Source of the DNA: Trebouxia sp. TZW2008
Lineage: Eukaryota; Chlorophyta; Trebouxiophyceae; Trebouxiales; Trebouxiaceae
DNA: 64,000 nucleotides
Direction of reading: 5' to 3'
Assembly: GCA_002118135.1 (NCBI GenBank)
Contig: BDIU01000189.1
Coordinates: 248,001 to 312,000, forward strand
The notes beneath the pieces were generated by a model. The model saw only the letters and a program-made list of their open reading frames with translations. It searched no databases and was not told the origin of the DNA. Below are positions 53,771 through 64,000 of this stretch, piece by piece; the stretch's first letter is position 1; every line of letters begins with the position of its first letter. Both the position numbers and the translations under genes were made by a program.

Positions 53771-56700
53771 ATGACACAAGTCGGTTTTTTGGCAGGCTCT
53801 GCGGTAATTGCTGGACTGCTGTTTGTCGGGCTGCATGCATTCCTCTCAACGCGTTGGAAGTGAGCGATGCAAACGCAGATTTCTGCATGTACATGTGCAA
53901 GATGATCCCAGCTGATGGCATCGGAGTATTTCCACCCTGGCCAAGTGTTCTGCCAAGACGGCAACGTGAATACTCACCTCCTGCATCGCCTGCTCTCTCA
54001 GCTTCTTCAGCTTTCATTCGGATTCTTTGTTAGTACTTTGAGCAAGGCTGTCAAGCAGCAGTGCGCAATGCAAGATTCGAGCGCTACTTCTGCAAGCTTC
54101 TACCGCAGTCGCCGATGTGCTAAGCAAGGCTTGACCGCAGATACGTCTTTTCACGTGTAGATGGGCGTGATGTAAGTGATCAGTGAGCTGCACCAAGGCG
54201 GGTTGCACATTGTGCACAGCATCTGCCGATCGCTCTGATCTCAACTGCTTGCGACGACAGTCGGCGAGAACGCGCCGTCAATACAGTTTGTATGCGCTGA
54301 GCACCCATACAGTCAATCTCAGCCAAAGCAGACCTTGCCATACCTAATGTGGGGTTTGCGCGCTCTGCGATAGCCTTCGTGTCTGCACGTGTTTGTTAGC
54401 ACGAACTGCTCTTGCGCGGCGGCATAAGCCTTGTGCGCGTGCACCGACCAGTGCCAAATGCAACATGCCAACACGAAGACAACATTGCATGCAGCGCCAT
54501 TGCTGCTCACTTGCGTCGTGATGGCGACCGTGTTGGCAGCTGCAGCTGCAGTTGCATGTAGCGGGCATCTGAGCTTGGCCAGCTTGCAATTGAAGGCGCA
54601 ATCGAGTGCCTGCTGTCTCATTGTCGCGCTGAGTGGACACTCGCTCAGCTGCACAATCTGTGCAATTTGCCTTTTCCACGCCTCGTATCTAGAGCTCAGC
54701 TGGGGTGAATTTCATGCTTGGCCTCCTGCAATGGCACTTTTGCAAGTGCATAAAATGGAATCTGGCAATGTGCATTGTCCATCCAATCTTGCTGCATGCA
54801 ATCAACGGGCATGACTTGGGCAGCTGAATGTGCAGGCATACTGGCATCAGTCATGACTGTCATCATGGCGGCTTGCACCTTGCGAGTCTCAATGGTAGTC
54901 AGCACATGGCTGCATGAAGTTGCCCATTTGGCAGCTGCTGTTGCCACATTGCGTAGAGAAGCTGGTCGACTGTCACAGATGACACCTGCCAATCTGACAG
55001 GCAAGTTTACACGTTTGCCTGTGATTTGATGATTGTACCAAAATCTTCCTTAAACTGGTAGCATCAGTGTTGATACTTGCAACTGATGCTTGCTCATGCA
55101 TGACAGCCGCATTGGCTTATAGTCTGAAAGCTTCACGTCTTGCAAGTCCAGGCAAGTCTGCTGTGATTGCAGCATGTTGCTCAACAAAGAAAGCGTTAAT
55201 GCCCCAGCACAGCAGCCCTGCACTATCCTTAACAGCCCCTTGAAACTTGGGATGCATGTCAACAACGCATGATCTGATACGAACATAAGTGTTGTTGCCC
55301 ATTCTGCAGGCAACACCTCTTGGCGCACCTGGATTGCATGCCTCCACCCCTTCCAATCCCTGCCTCATTCTTTCCAGCCGCATATTACAGTAAAAGCAGG
55401 TCAGAGCACAACGCCACTATCCCCAACAAGAAATCCGTGCAAGAAGCAACAAGCAGCAGTGACACAGCCATTGCCAGAGACGGCAGATTTGTGCACAGAT
55501 TCAGTTCCCAACACTGCTGCAGAAGCAGTCATCCATGCAGCTGGCTGGCTTTTCAGCTGTGCAAGCGCTTGCTGTGTACATTTTATGATGTCACAGCTTA
55601 GTGGCCCAGACCTAGAATTTGCAGAGCAGCATTCTAGAGGCCTTGACTTCAGCTGGCGCTATTGCCATAATCAGGTCATTGTAGGCTTTTATGTGACAGC
55701 TGTGGCAGCTCTGGCAACAGATTTGCTGGGCTGTTACCCAGTGACCCCTTTCCATAGTGATAGCCATAGATTTTGCTGCGGCAATTTTGGGATTATGCTG
55801 GCAGATGCGCGCACCCATTGCATTGATGTTGTACAGGTATGCTCTCATACGACTACACTTATGTTGTCACACAACATACACAGGTCACAAAGGCATCTGC
55901 CTGTCAAGTGATATGCTTGCAATTGAACCTGATCATATAGAAATGCATCAAAAAAGATTCCAAATTGAATGCACAGTGATTTGCCATAACGCCATGGACT
56001 GCAGTCATCACCATCCCCCATCTGCTCAACGCATAAAAATTTAGCTGTGAGCGATGCTAGCCTTTGCTCTTTGCAAGATGCGATAGTATAACTGATGCGA
56101 TGTGGCTGTGGTCTTTGGCAGGAGCGACATCATCCTGACACAATGCCACAAGGTTCTGCGCAAAGGCGGCGCCAGCAATTTTACTGACACGTGCTGTTGC
56201 TGCATTTGCAGGTATTGCAAACTATGGCAGAGGTGTGCATGTCCAGAGGAGCACAATCAGGCGGCCTAGTCATGCAGAAAGACTATTCTAGTGACCCTAT
56301 GTATGTGCAGTCACAGCGAGGCAGGTGTGTATTCAAACATTCAGACATCAAAACATCACAGCCTTGAGCGCATGTTCACAAGCAAGCGCATCGTGACAAG
56401 TCAAGAATGTTCTCACAGAACATGCGTGATGCTTATCTGTCATGTAGCAGCGGTGAGGAATTTTGGCTAATGGGCGAGAGCCTGATCCAGCTATACCGCA
56501 TGAATGAAGAAGGCTCAATTGGTTGTACATTTCATCTTTTCATTGAAGATCATATGGTGTGCCTGCCTTGGCTGCTTGCTCCACATGCGCTTGATTGTCC
56601 ACGATGACATCAGCTGCAAGCAATGCCTCTCTGCTTCCAAATTCACAGTTGCTTTGTATTCCCCCTTGCAAACTCCAAGTCAATGCCATGACATGCAACC

Positions 56701-58922
56701 AAACCTTTTTTAAACAGGCAGCATTCCTACAATTAAGATACAGGTAAGCAACATGCTTCTTACAGATGCAGGCAGCAGGGAGCCACCAGAGTGCGTATGG
56801 CGTCATCAAGGCGGGGCAACCTGGCAAAGAAGCTGTCAGCTGCCCTATGCAGAAGGCTGAGCTGGCATCGGCTGCGGCAGTGGTGGAGCGGCACACCACA
56901 TGATCAACAAGCCCTGCTGTGTGCTGGTAAGCTGCCCTTGCAGACCACTCATCTGATGTATAGCTTGACTTGATCTGTACACATTGGCTGTTTGTAAGGG
57001 CTGTTGGTACTGCAAGAGCCAATTTTGTGACATACAACCACTGTTGTTCAAGTTGTTCCAATGATGCTTGCAATGGTCTGCATCAAGCGACTGAATTCAA
57101 GATTTGGTGTCTTGTGACTGTTGAATGTGCTTGTTACTCACTGGTCAACTTGGGTTTACCGACACAAGTCAAGCTTACCAGAAAATACCCATCAGGTTTC
57201 TGCAACAAAGCCCTAACATGAAGGTGTTTGACAGCTTGGGGCTTTGCAGGACACTGCCGCTTTGCAACTTCTAGCGCCCCCACAGCATCTGAGACCCACC
57301 CCCATCAGTGGACCCCCTCCCGCCCCCACACCATTTGGTTCCCTAGCCCTCAATCCCCCAGCAGTGACACCCAACCTTTGCAACCTTCCACCCAACTCGC
57401 CCATCACTGCAACAGCAAGCAGAGCAGTGATGGCATGGGTGAGCTGTCGCTAGACATAACTCCAGAGACTAATACAGAATTAGCAATGCAGCAGACGCAA
57501 CTGCCAAGCAGATGGAACCTACAGTCTGCAAGCTGTGTGCATGGCATCTTTGTCACCCACAACGGCGACTTTGAGTCGTATGACCTGTTTGGTGAGAGGC
57601 TGTCATGTGGGGAGATGATGGGGTGGCTGGGGGCGGTGCTGCAGCGGCCTGCCCCTGCCTGCTGTGATAGCGTCGCCATTGCAGGTGCAGCACCCACTGC
57701 TGTCATGCATGAGTTGCTGCACTTGTGGATCAGCTACATCACTCTCACCGTATTCATGGCCTCAATATTAGAAAGACCTTTCAGCTTTGGCTGCTGCTGT
57801 CTTGTGTGGATTGCAGCACAGGTTGGCTAGTAGAGTGCCGTTGTGCTACATGCCAGCAGTGACTGAGTGTAGCATTTCTGCTCAATATTTGCTATCAAAT
57901 GATCTCTCAATCATTGAACACATGTATGCCTGACATGCTTACAGCCTACAAGCGCCTTCTTTGATCAAAGCATGAGCTGCATCCCTAATCTCCACCTTCA
58001 GCTTTCGCACTGTAAACTCGCAAGCTTCTGGTGCAGGTATGTTGGAGGTGTTGCGCACTCAGGGCTTGTGGGCAGAGTCCCTTCGGCTGGCCTTCCTGCA
58101 GACCATCAAAGGCGCAGTGGCTGTGCTTCCAAGCCCAGACAGCCCCCAGGATGTAGAAGCAGGCCTCAAGAGGTGTCCGGCACCCACTCACGCCCAACTG
58201 CAGGTCAGTGTGGAAAGCAACATTGAGTACTTTGCATCAGTGCCCGTGCAGGTGCTGCCCCGGCTGTGAGATTGTCACCATGCTATATCAGTGTTTGCTA
58301 TGACCAGTATGCTGTGAGGCATACTGGAATGCTAATGTATTAGGCTGTTGACGGTGCGTGAGCAGCATGGCATTGCCTTGATAGGACGGTGCCACATCTG
58401 CCTATACCAATCAGAGAGTGAAGGCTTTCTTGCACATTGTCTTGCTTCTCTTTTCAGGCACAGAGGAACAACAATGGTGCACTTTGCATCAATACCTTTG
58501 TACCTCAATTTGCCAGCAGCAGTGTTCACTGATTTGATGTTGCAGTACCGATCAAAGTGCCTGAAAACAGCAAAGTATGGCAATCCTTGGCAACAATTTC
58601 CTGTGCTGCAGGCATTGGCAAAGGTTGCTGACAGGTTCCTGAGCAGCTGGAGTTGCCGACACGGACAGCAAACTGATCATGGTGGTTGCAACATGCAAGA
58701 GCTACTGTGTGCAGCTCTAGGAGGCAGTGAAGGCGTGCTGGCAGCTGGTGCCGGGCTGCAAGCCGAGTTGCGCAAGCATGCACAGCAGGCAAGCCCGCCT
58801 GCCTTGCATTATTGTGTCATCAGGAGTCTATTGTCCTTTGCATTTTGGTTCTGCAACTTGAGCCAAGCTGCTCAGTCATCTGTGTGCATACAAGGCCAGA
58901 CAAGGTCAGTCACTGTGTGTGC

Positions 58923-59005
<83 letters not shown>

Positions 59006-62000
59006 TCTCATGCCACCTTGACAGACAGCTGACACTGCTTTTCATAATAGCCTATAACAAGTTGCAGTCTTGTTTCTTGACTGGTAAATCAATGTGATAG
59101 AAGCTGGTGTTGCATTAGCTTGTCAGAATGTTGGTTGCTATGCAGGTGAAGGCAAAGCAGCCTTGGTTGCAGTGGCTCACTCTACATAACAGCTGGACCA
59201 AGTTTTGCCACTTGGCCCTGCGCAACTTTGTGCAGAACGACCTGTATTGGGCAGTTCAGCACTTCCTTCATAAGGCCCATGGCAGCTTTGGGCTGGCTGT
59301 GGTTTCAGAGCTGGATGCTGGCTGCTTGGTTTTGGCAGCTTTGAGGCAGCCCATGACAATTGCAGTTGAGCCGCAGTCAGGGTAAGATTTGATGTGCTAC
59401 GCCCCATGCCTTTGTGACAGTGGATAGCATCTTTCTGTTCTGTGGCACTGTAAAGCATGTCTGCATGGTCTCCTGCCATGGCAGTATTAGTGCTCCACGC
59501 ACTGCCGAGCTCTTCCTGACATTATCATATCATCAGCCCTACTTGTAACTCTCTGGTGACCTTGTTGCTGCCTGGCTTGCACAACAGCATAGAGCAGCTG
59601 CTGGTACACAAGGGCAATTGAAAGGAGTCACAATCTGTCAAAGCAAAGCAATTGTGGTATGGGCCATTGCATGACAGGGGTGCCAAATTGACTCAAAGTC
59701 AGCATGTTGTACATGCAGGGCAATGTTATACAGCTCTGAGATTCAAGCCACCCTGCAACCACTGTCACTGCTCAAATTGCATGCTAGCCCATCAGCAGGG
59801 CTCAGACATCAGCTTCAGTCAACCTGCCGCTGGCTGAGACGTGACCCACAAAGTCACAAGGGCGGCAGCACAGCTAGACAGCCCGCATATCGTATTGACA
59901 TGGATGACACAGCTGGTGAAGTCATGATGCTGCGCTACCAAGCCAGAAGCAAGCATGCCTACAGTGCTGGAGCTGCTGCTGTCACCACTATAAGCACTGG
60001 GCATGACCGTGGCCACAGCTTTCAGCATAGCCACGGCAGCGATCAGCATTTGTTGCAAGCAGCCACTGGTGGAACCAATGCTTCAGAACTGTGGTCCCCC
60101 TTTGCAGATACAGTTAGCCATGATCAATTGATCCAGGCTGAAGATAGCGCATTTATGAATGGAAATACAGCCTACCAGAGCAAAGCTGCTCTGCAACATG
60201 CTGACTCAGCAACCCACAGAGCTCAGCCCTACACTTCACTGCATATGTCAGTGTACCGTGTTTCAGACCACAGACTGGTTGGCAGGCAAGAGTTTGTTGA
60301 CAGTCACAGGCTGGTCAGCTTGCAGAACAACCCATATGTGCCATTGCCTGCTGATACAGCCGTGGATTCTGGATCTGCAACGCTCTGGAAGCATCAGGTA
60401 CACTGCCTACATTGACCGCATTTTTCTTTCGCTTTGATTGTTTTGTTGTACACAGGACAATTGTACCCATGTCACATCCCTTGCTGCTGACCAGAAGCTC
60501 GAGGCAATGTGATCCTGGCAAGTGTGAGGTCAGGAGCATCAACTCTGCATGCGCTTGTACTGCTATGAGCTCTTGTGCTCCTGATCTTCATCACAGGCTG
60601 GCTTCTCCCGTTTGAGAACCTGCTTGAATTGCCTGCTGCTTGTCTCTAGATAGGCTGAAGACTGCGCTTGTGACTGCTTTCACTACAGTGTGGTTACATT
60701 ACATGCATGTCTTATCAGTAGCTTTCCCATGAACAAAAAGGACGCATGCTTGCCTCAGCATTCAGGCTGTGCAGAGATATGCATTGGTATCATGCCTGCA
60801 GGCAGAGAAGGATCTGGCTGAGATACCTGCTGTGCTGCATGCATTGAGCCTGAGCTGGCAGAACCCCAACTCCTTCAATTGCACCACTGCTAGGTGCCCT
60901 GGCGCTTCTGAACTATGCTTGAATTTGTTGTCTGCTTTGTCAACAGAGTGCTCTGGCTGCTGCTATCTCTGTCTGTTCATCACATCACAAGACAACTTAG
61001 CAATGGGGTCTGCAAATGGACATGCAGTATTTGAGACACATTGTATGTGCAGGGCTTTTTCAGACATGTTGATGGCTTCTCTCCACCACAATGCAAATTT
61101 ACCTTGGGCTGCAAGTAAGCACCCCATGGCACTCCTTGTGAACTTCAACTACTGCCCTGACCTTGTTCTGCCATTCTGCTGAAGGCATTTTGGCTCATGT
61201 CAACAAGTCTGCTGATAGTACTTGAGAGCAGGCAGCACATGGAGTAGTTGCACTGTTGCTGCATTGCTGACAATTAGCATCACTGGCTGGCGGATTGTGC
61301 AGGGTGGGCACATGTAGACTTGATTTTGACAGGCATGGAGGCTAGTCTGTGGGTAGCTGAGCAGTTTGCCCTTGACCTCAAGGTACTCTTGTGTGCGCAC
61401 CATACTGCTTCTCAACCGTAAATCTGCTTGACTGCTGTTCCCTCTTATGGCATTGCAGTCAGGTGCTGTGAACGCATGTCATGCAGTCACGCAAGCCCAA
61501 TCAGACATCTGGGTCCAGCTCTTCTGACTGCACGCCAAAACAAAGACAGTCTGCATGATGCCCATTCCCAAAGCTCTGTACATGTGGCAGACAGCCCCAG
61601 TGTCACTATTTGGCATTTATGTATAGGCAACTCTGCCAAGGATTCATGTGCTGGTCATAAGCTCAAACAAGCTCATCAACCTTTTAGAAACCATTGGTGG
61701 AGATCCAGCAAACTTGTCAAATGGCAGGTATGGTGTCTGACATGTCTGATATCAGGAACTGCTTGTCACTTGCTGCCAGCACACATCACGGCAAAGATGC
61801 TATACCATTGCGCCATGCCTGAAGCAACATTACACAATGCAGCATTTGTGCCACATGTCCTTGCAGCCAGACAGCTGACAGTGTACATGCACAAGCACAT
61901 GCACAAACACTGCACTGCTGCATGAGCATTGCGCTTCAGTTGATCTTGTGCATGCTGCTTGCTGGCACACAGTCATGCTCATTCAGAGGGTGTCTAGCAG

Positions 62001-64000
62001 TTGTGAAGTGTTGCACAGATATGACAGATGTGGCACTTGGCTCAGGCTAGGCGTCACCCTCAACAGGGACCAGACCACAGTGCTTTGCATTTCCCACTCA
62101 GGGCAGACCTTCCCTACACTGCACGCTGCCCGCCTCCTCTCCCTTCACCTGCCAACTCGTGTCTTTGTGATGTGTGGTAGCCTGGACACCAAGATCAGCC
62201 TAGCTGTAGGCCAGCAAATCTGGAAGGTAGCTTATTTTGCTTTGTTGACCCAGCAAGTCTGCAAGTCATTTACTTTGCCAAGCCAGCAGGTCTGCTCTCA
62301 TGGCATCATTCAGTATTCAGGGGCATGCTGCTCTCATACAGTGTGCAATGCTGGGCTGGCTGTGCTTTTGAAGCACAGCTTGTCTTTCACAGACGCATTG
62401 GTACTGAATAGCTCTGCCACCCGGAAAGAATGTGAACAAGAGAGCTTGGTTGCGGCAGGGGGCAGCATTTGGGCAGCGGGTGTTTGTGACACTAGCGGGC
62501 TGGCGCAGTGCCGAGCCAGCCAGCCTGACTGCAGCGGCCTCCCACCATTGCCTTTCCTTGCTGCTCACCGACCTGGCAAGGCACCTCCTGGTGGCACAGC
62601 GACCCATTACTCACAGCCTTGGTCAGCATAATCAGCCGCTTGAACGCTTGTTCTCGTTTTGCCATTGTTTGGGAGAGACAGTCATGCATAACAAGTGCGT
62701 CTGTAATATGTGCATGACGCAAAAAATAAGAGCTGCATTGAATCCCGCAAGACGGGGCATCACAAAGTCATTCACTTAGAAATTTAGCAGGTCAAGATTG
62801 TTTGCATCAAAAGCACATGACCTCTGCTGCACCGTCAAGTGATGGGCATCAAATATCATTGTGAAGCTATGTGTCACAAATAGAACTGCTATGAATCATG
62901 TATTGGTTGTGCCCTCCAAGAGCTGGACACCTGCTTGAAGTGGCATCCACCTAGGAGAGAAGGGACTCAGCATCTGCCAATGTAACATCACCACATCACA
63001 GCCTTTATCACAAGTACAGGGTTCAGCATTTGCCACATTGGTTGAGCATGCTTGAGGGATTTAGAAAGTCAATTCTGCTAGCAAAGGCAAGTCATGTGTA
63101 CAAGTGCATGCTCTTGCTTACTCTTGCAGGTCTGACGGCAAGTCATGATGACCTGGAAGACTTGCGGCTGATTGAAGGTGCCTGTGTACATTGCGCTCTG
63201 CCTGCCCTGGTTGGCTGGGATGTCACCACACAGCCCTTGAAGTCAAATGCAAACGCCGTCTTAGTGAAGCAGGTCAGCCACTTTACCTCATGCAGCATTT
63301 TCATCTGTGTTTGACAAGTTGTTACATTTGTTTGCTGCTTGATTTCAGTTGCACCAAACACTGCGACTGTCATTCTCGTGCTGCATAACTAATTTGCACA
63401 CGCGCTTGTACAGGCAAGATCTTCATCGATGCATGCCAATCAGCTCACGGATGCTTTGTATACTGCTTGCACAGGCAATATGGTGCCTGTTGATGCACAT
63501 GCCTCTTTGTGATAGGCTCATGTCAGGTATGCTGCGTTGGCGGTGATGCGTCAGAGGTGCCTCGTATGCTGTCAAACAGTCTCAAATGCACCTGTCATGG
63601 TCCGTTGTGCATTTGGCTATTGGTGCAATCAACGTTGAACGCTGCTCAGTTGAAAATCTCACAATCTGTGGTCTCTTGCTCTGGCTCCTGATGCTGCTGT
63701 TACTGAAGTAGCGGGCATTGTGTGGGTGGCAGGGGCGGCGCTGGGCGCTGCATGTGTTGGAGGGCCCCTTGGCCTGGCTGCTGGCCGCCCTCTACATTGC
63801 TGCCACTGTCATCTCTGGCTATCCTCCCTTCAGATCTATCCTGCTGGTACATGGCATCCTCTTCCTTGCTTTGGTGGGAGCAATGCATCACAAGTTTGTT
63901 TGTGAAAAACACCTGCACCTTCATCTGCTGCTGCTTTGGCTTCTGCTCCTTGTGCCTTGCGCTGCCAAAAACAGGTGAACAAGTGAAGTCATGCCTGGGG
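53771..64000 (+). CDS. Giant membrane protein with HEVAH motif, class-II glutamine amidotransferase and SIS domain; 3' end outside window
   Basis: Exons read: 53771-53859, 54495-54704, 54824-55000, 55310-55836, 56212-56324, 56772-56926, 57250-57684, 58037-58203, 58612-58788, 59146-59381, 59719-60397, one near 60750-60893, 61303-61382, 61627-61727, 62019-62226, 62459-62621, 63130-63272, 63733-63846 and beyond. Order: signal-anchor-like start (MTQVGFLAGSAVIAGLLFVG), membrane segments, WLHEVAHLAAAV, more membrane helices, then amidotransferase motifs RFCCGNFGIML (catalytic-Cys position), RGAQSGGLV, GHCRFATSSAPT--ETHPHQW, FVTHNGDFESYDLFG and GSFGLAVVSELDA. Then SIS-like pieces ISSNKL, CISHSGQTFPTLHAARLL, LAGWRSAEPASLT, and a C-terminal transmembrane helix (WLLAALYIAATVISGY). 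The layout resembles GFAT with a membrane module. Product and substrate are unknown. Junctions near 53860-54490 and 60398-61302 are unresolved. Confidence 0.8.
58921..59006 (+). repeat. (GACA)n microsatellite
   Basis: About 21 tandem copies of the tetranucleotide gaca, in the intron between the exons ending at 58788 and starting at 59146. Confidence 0.98.

Follow-up and report, generated by a model that had tools for sequence, protein, structure and literature searches.

Toward the end of a 64,000-nucleotide stretch of the genome of the green alga Trebouxia sp. TZW2008 (contig BDIU01000189.1, positions 248,001 to 312,000 of the forward strand; hereafter the window) lies a single gene whose exons encode a membrane module, a class-II amidotransferase and a pair of SIS domains. 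We think its product is best explained as a membrane-anchored relative of glutamine:fructose-6-phosphate amidotransferase (GFAT), made as an inactive precursor and matured by a cut just before Cys220, an explanation to which, taken as a whole, we would give just under an even chance. The N terminus would be formed by a three-helix module akin to peptidase family M50, whose helix 1 carries an HExxH motif and whose helix 3 closes with an Asp; a short flexible linker would connect it to the glutaminase domain. If the chain were cut before Cys220, that residue would become the N-terminal nucleophile typical of class-II amidotransferases. The mature glutaminase would then free ammonia from glutamine and pass it to the SIS pair, which the segment between the two SIS domains would hold at the membrane. 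In lineages with HExxH, this alga among them, the fused module would be the most likely cutter, in cis or in trans.

The window falls within contig C181 of a genome of 68.5 Mb in 527 contigs, and the coordinates called extended below run 3.7 kb past the window. We read the exon chain on the + strand and refined it twice against the protein of the nearest relative, Trebouxia sp. C0004 (P0059). In its final form the model comprises 23 exons that encode 1466 amino acids without an internal stop. It runs from 54811 to extended coordinate 66756, and exons 1-17 fall inside the window; its 22 introns are GT-AG, except for introns 1 and 7, which are GC-AG. Aligned end to end, model and P0059 are identical at 740 of 1491 positions (8-1466 against 30-1462), and their C termini are nearly the same. 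With P0059 as query against the whole genome, 21 candidates were scored and 15 exon matches kept, all collinear on C181 and with no second gene copy among them. Because P0059 is collinear and the exon matches are ordered on one contig, we take this to be a single gene and not neighbours joined by chance. A preliminary description of this DNA had placed HEVAH, FCC-GNFG, RGAQSGG, GHCRFATSS, THNGDFE, SHSGQTFPT and several hydrophobic segments in one phase-consistent chain, and all of them are there. It had also begun the protein with an anchor exon at 53771, which we dropped: the exon is absent from P0059 and from the other relatives inspected, and the intervening reading frames contain stops. 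P0059 starts differently from our model, and the first exon and the start codon at 54811 are provisional.

To the idea that two adjacent genes were joined by a wrong exon chain we give next to no credence. It could draw on the uncertain first exon and on the fact that the model for this organism was built from genomic DNA. Among relatives, however, it is already refuted. P0059 is collinear over its full length, single transcriptome open reading frames (ORFs) hold HExxH and Cys together (for example P0068, P0072, P0098, P0110, P0119 and P0163), and intron-free bacterial ORFs have the same domain order. The worry that the membrane and amidotransferase parts might sit on separate transcripts is thus laid to rest for these relatives.

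The membrane module spans residues 1-205 and includes HEVAH (35-39), HAAGW (139-143) and Asp201; two stretches of it, 1-34 and 185-205, are picked out by hydropathy. From residue 220 onward runs the class-II glutaminase domain (RGAQSGG, GHCRFATSS, HPHQW, THNGDFE, CDSVAIAG), in which a further stretch, 634-654, is flagged by hydropathy. Two SIS domains occupy ~890-1466, with TGMEASLW and SHSGQTFPT in the first, and hydrophobic segments at ~1172-1198 and ~1217-1240 separate them. The membrane helix once placed after the SIS-type motifs is therefore real, but it belongs between the two SIS domains. Pfam gave no related match for the exon translations, where the matches were unrelated and at E > 0.09, or for an earlier 1564-residue full model. 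That earlier model served for the Pfam scan and one protein search; a 1508-residue model went into the tree.

The glutaminase and SIS parts are those of a GFAT-type class-II amidotransferase, with an internal Cys, Cys220, at the nucleophile position, as had been proposed. Like human GFAT-1 (6r4g) and Escherichia coli GlmS (2j6h), members of the family have a glutaminase and two SIS domains along their whole length, with the Cys at the same place and the glutaminase residues retained; the glutaminase region of relatives' predicted models fits these structures, and Cys149 and Cys182 of two such models align with Cys1. They differ in having an internal Cys, an N-terminal membrane module and a membrane segment between the SIS domains, and one member, P0180, shares only ~14-17% identity with GFAT/GlmS over its full length. 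All seven bacterial relatives in alignment A4 match the curated GlmS families TIGR01135 and NF001484 weakly (best E 2.6e-7), and P0181 falls far under the curated cut-off (13 against 381 bits). In alignment A3, whose 63 rows were picked for length, the glutaminase Arg, HNGD and Asp are identical in 63/63, and the Cys is retained in every row that reaches it. The isomerase residues of GlmS we take to be Lys485, Glu488, His504 and Lys603; the Lys485 position is Lys in 62/63 rows, and the Glu488 position, its correspondence judged by eye, is Ala or Ser in 63/63.

That last column is one reason to consider a different role: an uncut protein whose glutaminase-like domain and SIS pair detect glutamine and sugar phosphate at the membrane and signal through the M50-like module, which would act as a regulated protease or a metal-site switch. 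EF hands occur in some members, and signalling genes lie near some of the bacterial loci: histidine kinase/response regulator genes beside L033 and L034, a protein kinase with a periplasmic binding domain beside L028, and Crp-type regulators beside L012 and L013. We consider this improbable. Since the examined glutaminase residues are invariant, the non-catalytic sensor entertained in the preliminary description is weakened; module-less cyanobacterial members begin Met-Cys, as a catalytic N-terminal nucleophile (Ntn) enzyme needs; and among 18 of the 47 bacterial loci, whose neighbourhoods we examined, no partner is common to most. We infer a catalytic rather than a sensory role.

Two observations touch on control. 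In L033 (3817-9045) and L034 (1-9006), module-less Met-Cys proteins lie directly downstream of the histidine kinase/response regulator genes, in an operon-like arrangement. An EF-hand pair stands toward the C-terminal end of P0072 (1442-1502) and P0111 (1265-1327), and EF hands are precomputed for the named diatom members P0070, P0080 and P0095; these suggest that calcium may control some members.

Class-II amidotransferases require a free N-terminal Cys. In module-less relatives the Cys directly follows the initiator Met; in the window protein it is internal. At all seven module-less cyanobacterial loci an ATG immediately precedes the Cys codon and is itself preceded, 1-5 codons upstream, by an in-frame stop, so a longer protein is impossible; about four of them have a Shine-Dalgarno-like stretch, judged by eye. 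No short extension other than Met was found before the Cys in the bacterial loci inspected. Nine predicted proteins, mostly from a dinoflagellate-like branch, also start Met-Cys; upstream stops were verified for the seven loci, and these nine rest on gene calls (P0150, P0155 and P0156 come from transcripts, as ORFs flagged complete, and P0116, P0125 and P0148 from metagenome prediction). On a tree of 139 rows the Met-Cys state amounts to nine changes, at least six of them forced by branches with support of at least 95, with the proviso that the nine protein starts are gene calls and that P0148 sits on a very long branch.

The 181 internal-Cys sequences look different at this point. Not one has Met directly before the Cys; position -2 is F in 107 and L in 51, and position -1 is F in 53, Y in 45 and H in 28, and this [FL][FYH]C junction is kept whether the module has HExxH or HGxxH. 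An [ST]D pair occurs within 75 residues before the Cys in 178/181 (median 20; the first such pair was counted, so some occur by chance). An Asp some 20 residues before the Cys would make a cut in cis sterically conceivable. We read this as a sign that an N-terminal Cys would be required throughout, reached by Met removal where there is no module and by cleavage at [FL][FYH]-Cys where there is one. The cut before the Cys that had been suggested earlier thus gains strong indirect support from the Met-Cys starts and the conserved junction.

What, then, might do the cutting? The module was first described as M50-like, and the likeness holds. As in M50 and M50B (site-2 proteases; PF02163, PF13398), the first membrane helix of three bears HExxH, the second an AGP/HAGW stretch, and the third has an Asp at its end. 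It departs from them in directly preceding an amidotransferase, in being very divergent and in carrying HGxxH in a large bacterial clade. HExxH of the window protein closes the first hydrophobic segment; relatives' models show the three-helix module, and in that of P0012 helix 7-32 contains HExxH and helix 105-125 has D124 at its end. In A3 the Glu position is E in 38 rows, G in 12 (the HGxxH members), Q in one and a gap in 12. The Asp is listed as invariant in A2 (74 rows) and A5 (40 rows). A5 also shows H, E, H and Cys without variation, but its rows were picked for HExxH, so only its Ser, Asp and Cys are a test. One member, P0042, lies above the Pfam M50B cut-off (27 against 26 bits). For four of five subfamily consensus modules M50 was the best Pfam match (E 1.6e-5 to 0.067), all below cut-off and with scores that a consensus overstates; the fifth, the cyanobacterial consensus, had no M50 match. 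Among single bacterial members L048 matches M50 at E 0.01, and L045 and L057 do not match. A sequence-profile search of the PDB returned no M50 and no GFAT either.

Several results weigh against a protease built into the chain. An M50B match at E <= 0.1 appears in 2/40 members, and the window protein, as the 1564-residue model, has none in Pfam. VIA-align of relatives' models gave no M50 structure, the module not having been modelled alone, and of the three module helices hydropathy detects only the outer two in the window protein, the middle one being taken from relatives' models. Neither HExxH nor HGxxH is seen in 24 of the 228 sequences, all 24 with an internal Cys and many with a late start: P0118 has HELLGH, P0152 NEIGH, L043 (Elusimicrobia) no clear module and L040 is broken; the others, as far as visible, have late starts or exon breaks. 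HGxxH stands in 44/228 sequences, which yet retain the internal Cys and the junction motif. These are the cyanobacterial modules that were read, except L052, and five of six proteobacterial modules. An HGxxH module is hardly an ordinary metalloprotease, because the catalytic Glu is absent. A protease is not required for the cut in any case, since GPAT propeptides are removed autocatalytically (PMC7056826) and a review describes the loss of a few residues in the same way for family C44 generally (PMC9140057).

The HGxxH sequences and the autocatalytic precedents favour a rival account. In it the Cys is exposed either autocatalytically within the chain, as in GPAT, or by a separate protease, and the M50-like module has lost its cutting role and serves in membrane anchoring, targeting or regulation. 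Another point for it is that the module is missing from several lineages whose proteins start Met-Cys. GPAT/PurF with a propeptide is indeed a class-II amidotransferase whose Cys is exposed by prosequence removal (PMC7056826), but its prosequences are short and self-cleaved, and its second domain is a phosphoribosyltransferase where SIS stands here. A mere anchor would not be expected to keep E in 38/39 A3 rows outside the HGxxH members, or the invariant Asp, and even HGxxH rows keep both His and the Asp. We know of no GPAT prosequence with a membrane or HExxH module, and for GFAT itself no N-terminal processing other than Met removal is known to us. We have doubts about this rival, serious contender though it is.

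Within the HGxxH clade, either another protease or autocatalysis acts, or the module is the cutter nowhere. That choice is why, from the sequences, we hold a cut just before Cys220 to be probable but regard the fused module as its agent as evenly balanced; the earlier suggestion that the module cuts is possible and unproven. The fuller proposal, a self-maturing membrane enzyme in which a cis-fused intramembrane-type metalloprotease cuts beside the Cys, creates the N-terminal nucleophile and so switches on amination by intramembrane proteolysis, we would put somewhat below even. Two members of the otherwise HGxxH clade, L052 (5995-9747) and L057 (5683-9705), have HELGH. We considered that a LEHRS-like motif, present in the cyanobacterial HGxxH members and absent from L052, might supply the missing Glu; a general swap was rejected because the proteobacterial HGxxH members lack the motif too.

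Relatives in other protists had been anticipated; there are many, and bacterial ones as well. Protein searches listed 58, 95 and 32 proteins, 181 of them distinct, from green algae, streptophyte algae, a glaucophyte and a red alga (P0133, P0135), a cryptophyte, haptophytes, diatoms and dinoflagellates, as far as the records carry names, several of the group names being our interpretation of their labels. A bacterial genome scan gave 47 loci, mostly cyanobacterial, plus Chromatiaceae, Celeribacter, Omnitrophota and one Elusimicrobia record. The 181 proteins, the window model and ORFs of 46 of the 47 loci make up the 228 sequences (P0147 duplicates L054, and L031 duplicates L056): 113 with HExxH, 44 with HGxxH, 16 Met-Cys, 24 with an internal Cys and no recognised HxxxH, 10 with the Cys at positions 3-59, 20 without the Cys motif and one without an anchor. 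The 10 retain a junction-like residue before the Cys and look truncated; the 20 are truncated or, as in P0127, P0147 and P0151, of CGV type. In the tree the nearest neighbours of the window protein are two Trebouxia proteins, followed by P0063 (Symbiochloris), so that a trebouxiophyte green alga is the probable source. In P0147, P0127, P0146, P0151, P0152 and L051 (Omnitrophota and unnamed similar records) the unit sits inside chains of ~2,150-2,700 residues with long N-terminal parts. P0083 (Chlamydomonas) and P0091 (Volvox) have ~2,200 residues, at least P0083 with large insertions relative to the window protein.

The features of the gene are collected in the table. A run of CAGA tetranucleotide repeats (~58920-59005) lies in intron 7, and a separate GFAT-like locus, with one GATase_6 and three SIS matches, lies on contig C395 of the same genome.

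Table. Coordinates of the gene and its parts (positions in the window unless marked extended)
Feature	Position	Strand	Remarks
Gene, M50-like / class-II amidotransferase / SIS membrane protein	54811..64000, on to extended 66756	+	Phase-consistent exons, collinear with P0059
Exon 1	54811..55000	+	First hydrophobic segment and HEVAH; start codon provisional
HEVAH, aa 35-39	54913..54927	+	HExxH metal-site motif
Exon 2	55310..55836	+	Remaining membrane module (HAAGW, TD), junction, CGNFG
HAAGW, aa 139-143	55534..55548	+	Where M50 has the AGP motif
Asp201	55720..55722	+	Predicted third metal ligand, end of third module helix
Cys220	55777..55779	+	At GFAT catalytic Cys1 position; proposed cut immediately N-terminal
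Exon 3	56212..56324	+	RGAQSGG at 56245-56265
Exon 4	56772..56926	+	
Exon 5	57250..57684	+	GHCRFATSS, HPHQW, THNGDFE (57555-57575), CDSVAIAG; glutaminase active-site residues
Exon 6	58037..58203	+	
Exon 7	58612..58788	+	Followed by GC donor
Exon 8	59146..59381	+	Later glutaminase-domain strands
Exon 9	59719..60397	+	End of glutaminase domain and linker
Exon 10	60802..60893	+	
Exon 11	61053..61114	+	
Exon 12	61303..61382	+	TGMEASLW, first SIS domain
Exon 13	61627..61727	+	
Exon 14	62046..62226	+	SHSGQTFPT (62092-62118), SIS-1 sugar-phosphate loop
Exon 15	62459..62621	+	
Exon 16	63130..63272	+	
Exon 17	63733..63846	+	First inter-SIS hydrophobic segment, ~63745-63825; splice end set by P0059
Exons 18-23	Beyond window	+	

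In the open-licence papers searched we found no description of this fusion of module and amidotransferase. To our knowledge, class-II amidotransferases gain their N-terminal Cys by Met removal or by self-cleavage of short propeptides. A large, nearly unannotated family with a site-2-protease-like module before the Cys suggests a third route to maturation, and such a switch could couple amination to membrane state or to signals. The spread through primary- and secondary-plastid algae, cyanobacteria and purple sulfur bacteria hints at an undescribed function common in phototrophs; Celeribacter, Omnitrophota and the Elusimicrobia record show that the family is not confined to them. Through the module-less Met-Cys relatives the idea is open to direct test in bacteria. 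If true, it would be a new way to make an Ntn enzyme, present in algae and, among bacteria with HExxH modules, in the phylum Omnitrophota at least.

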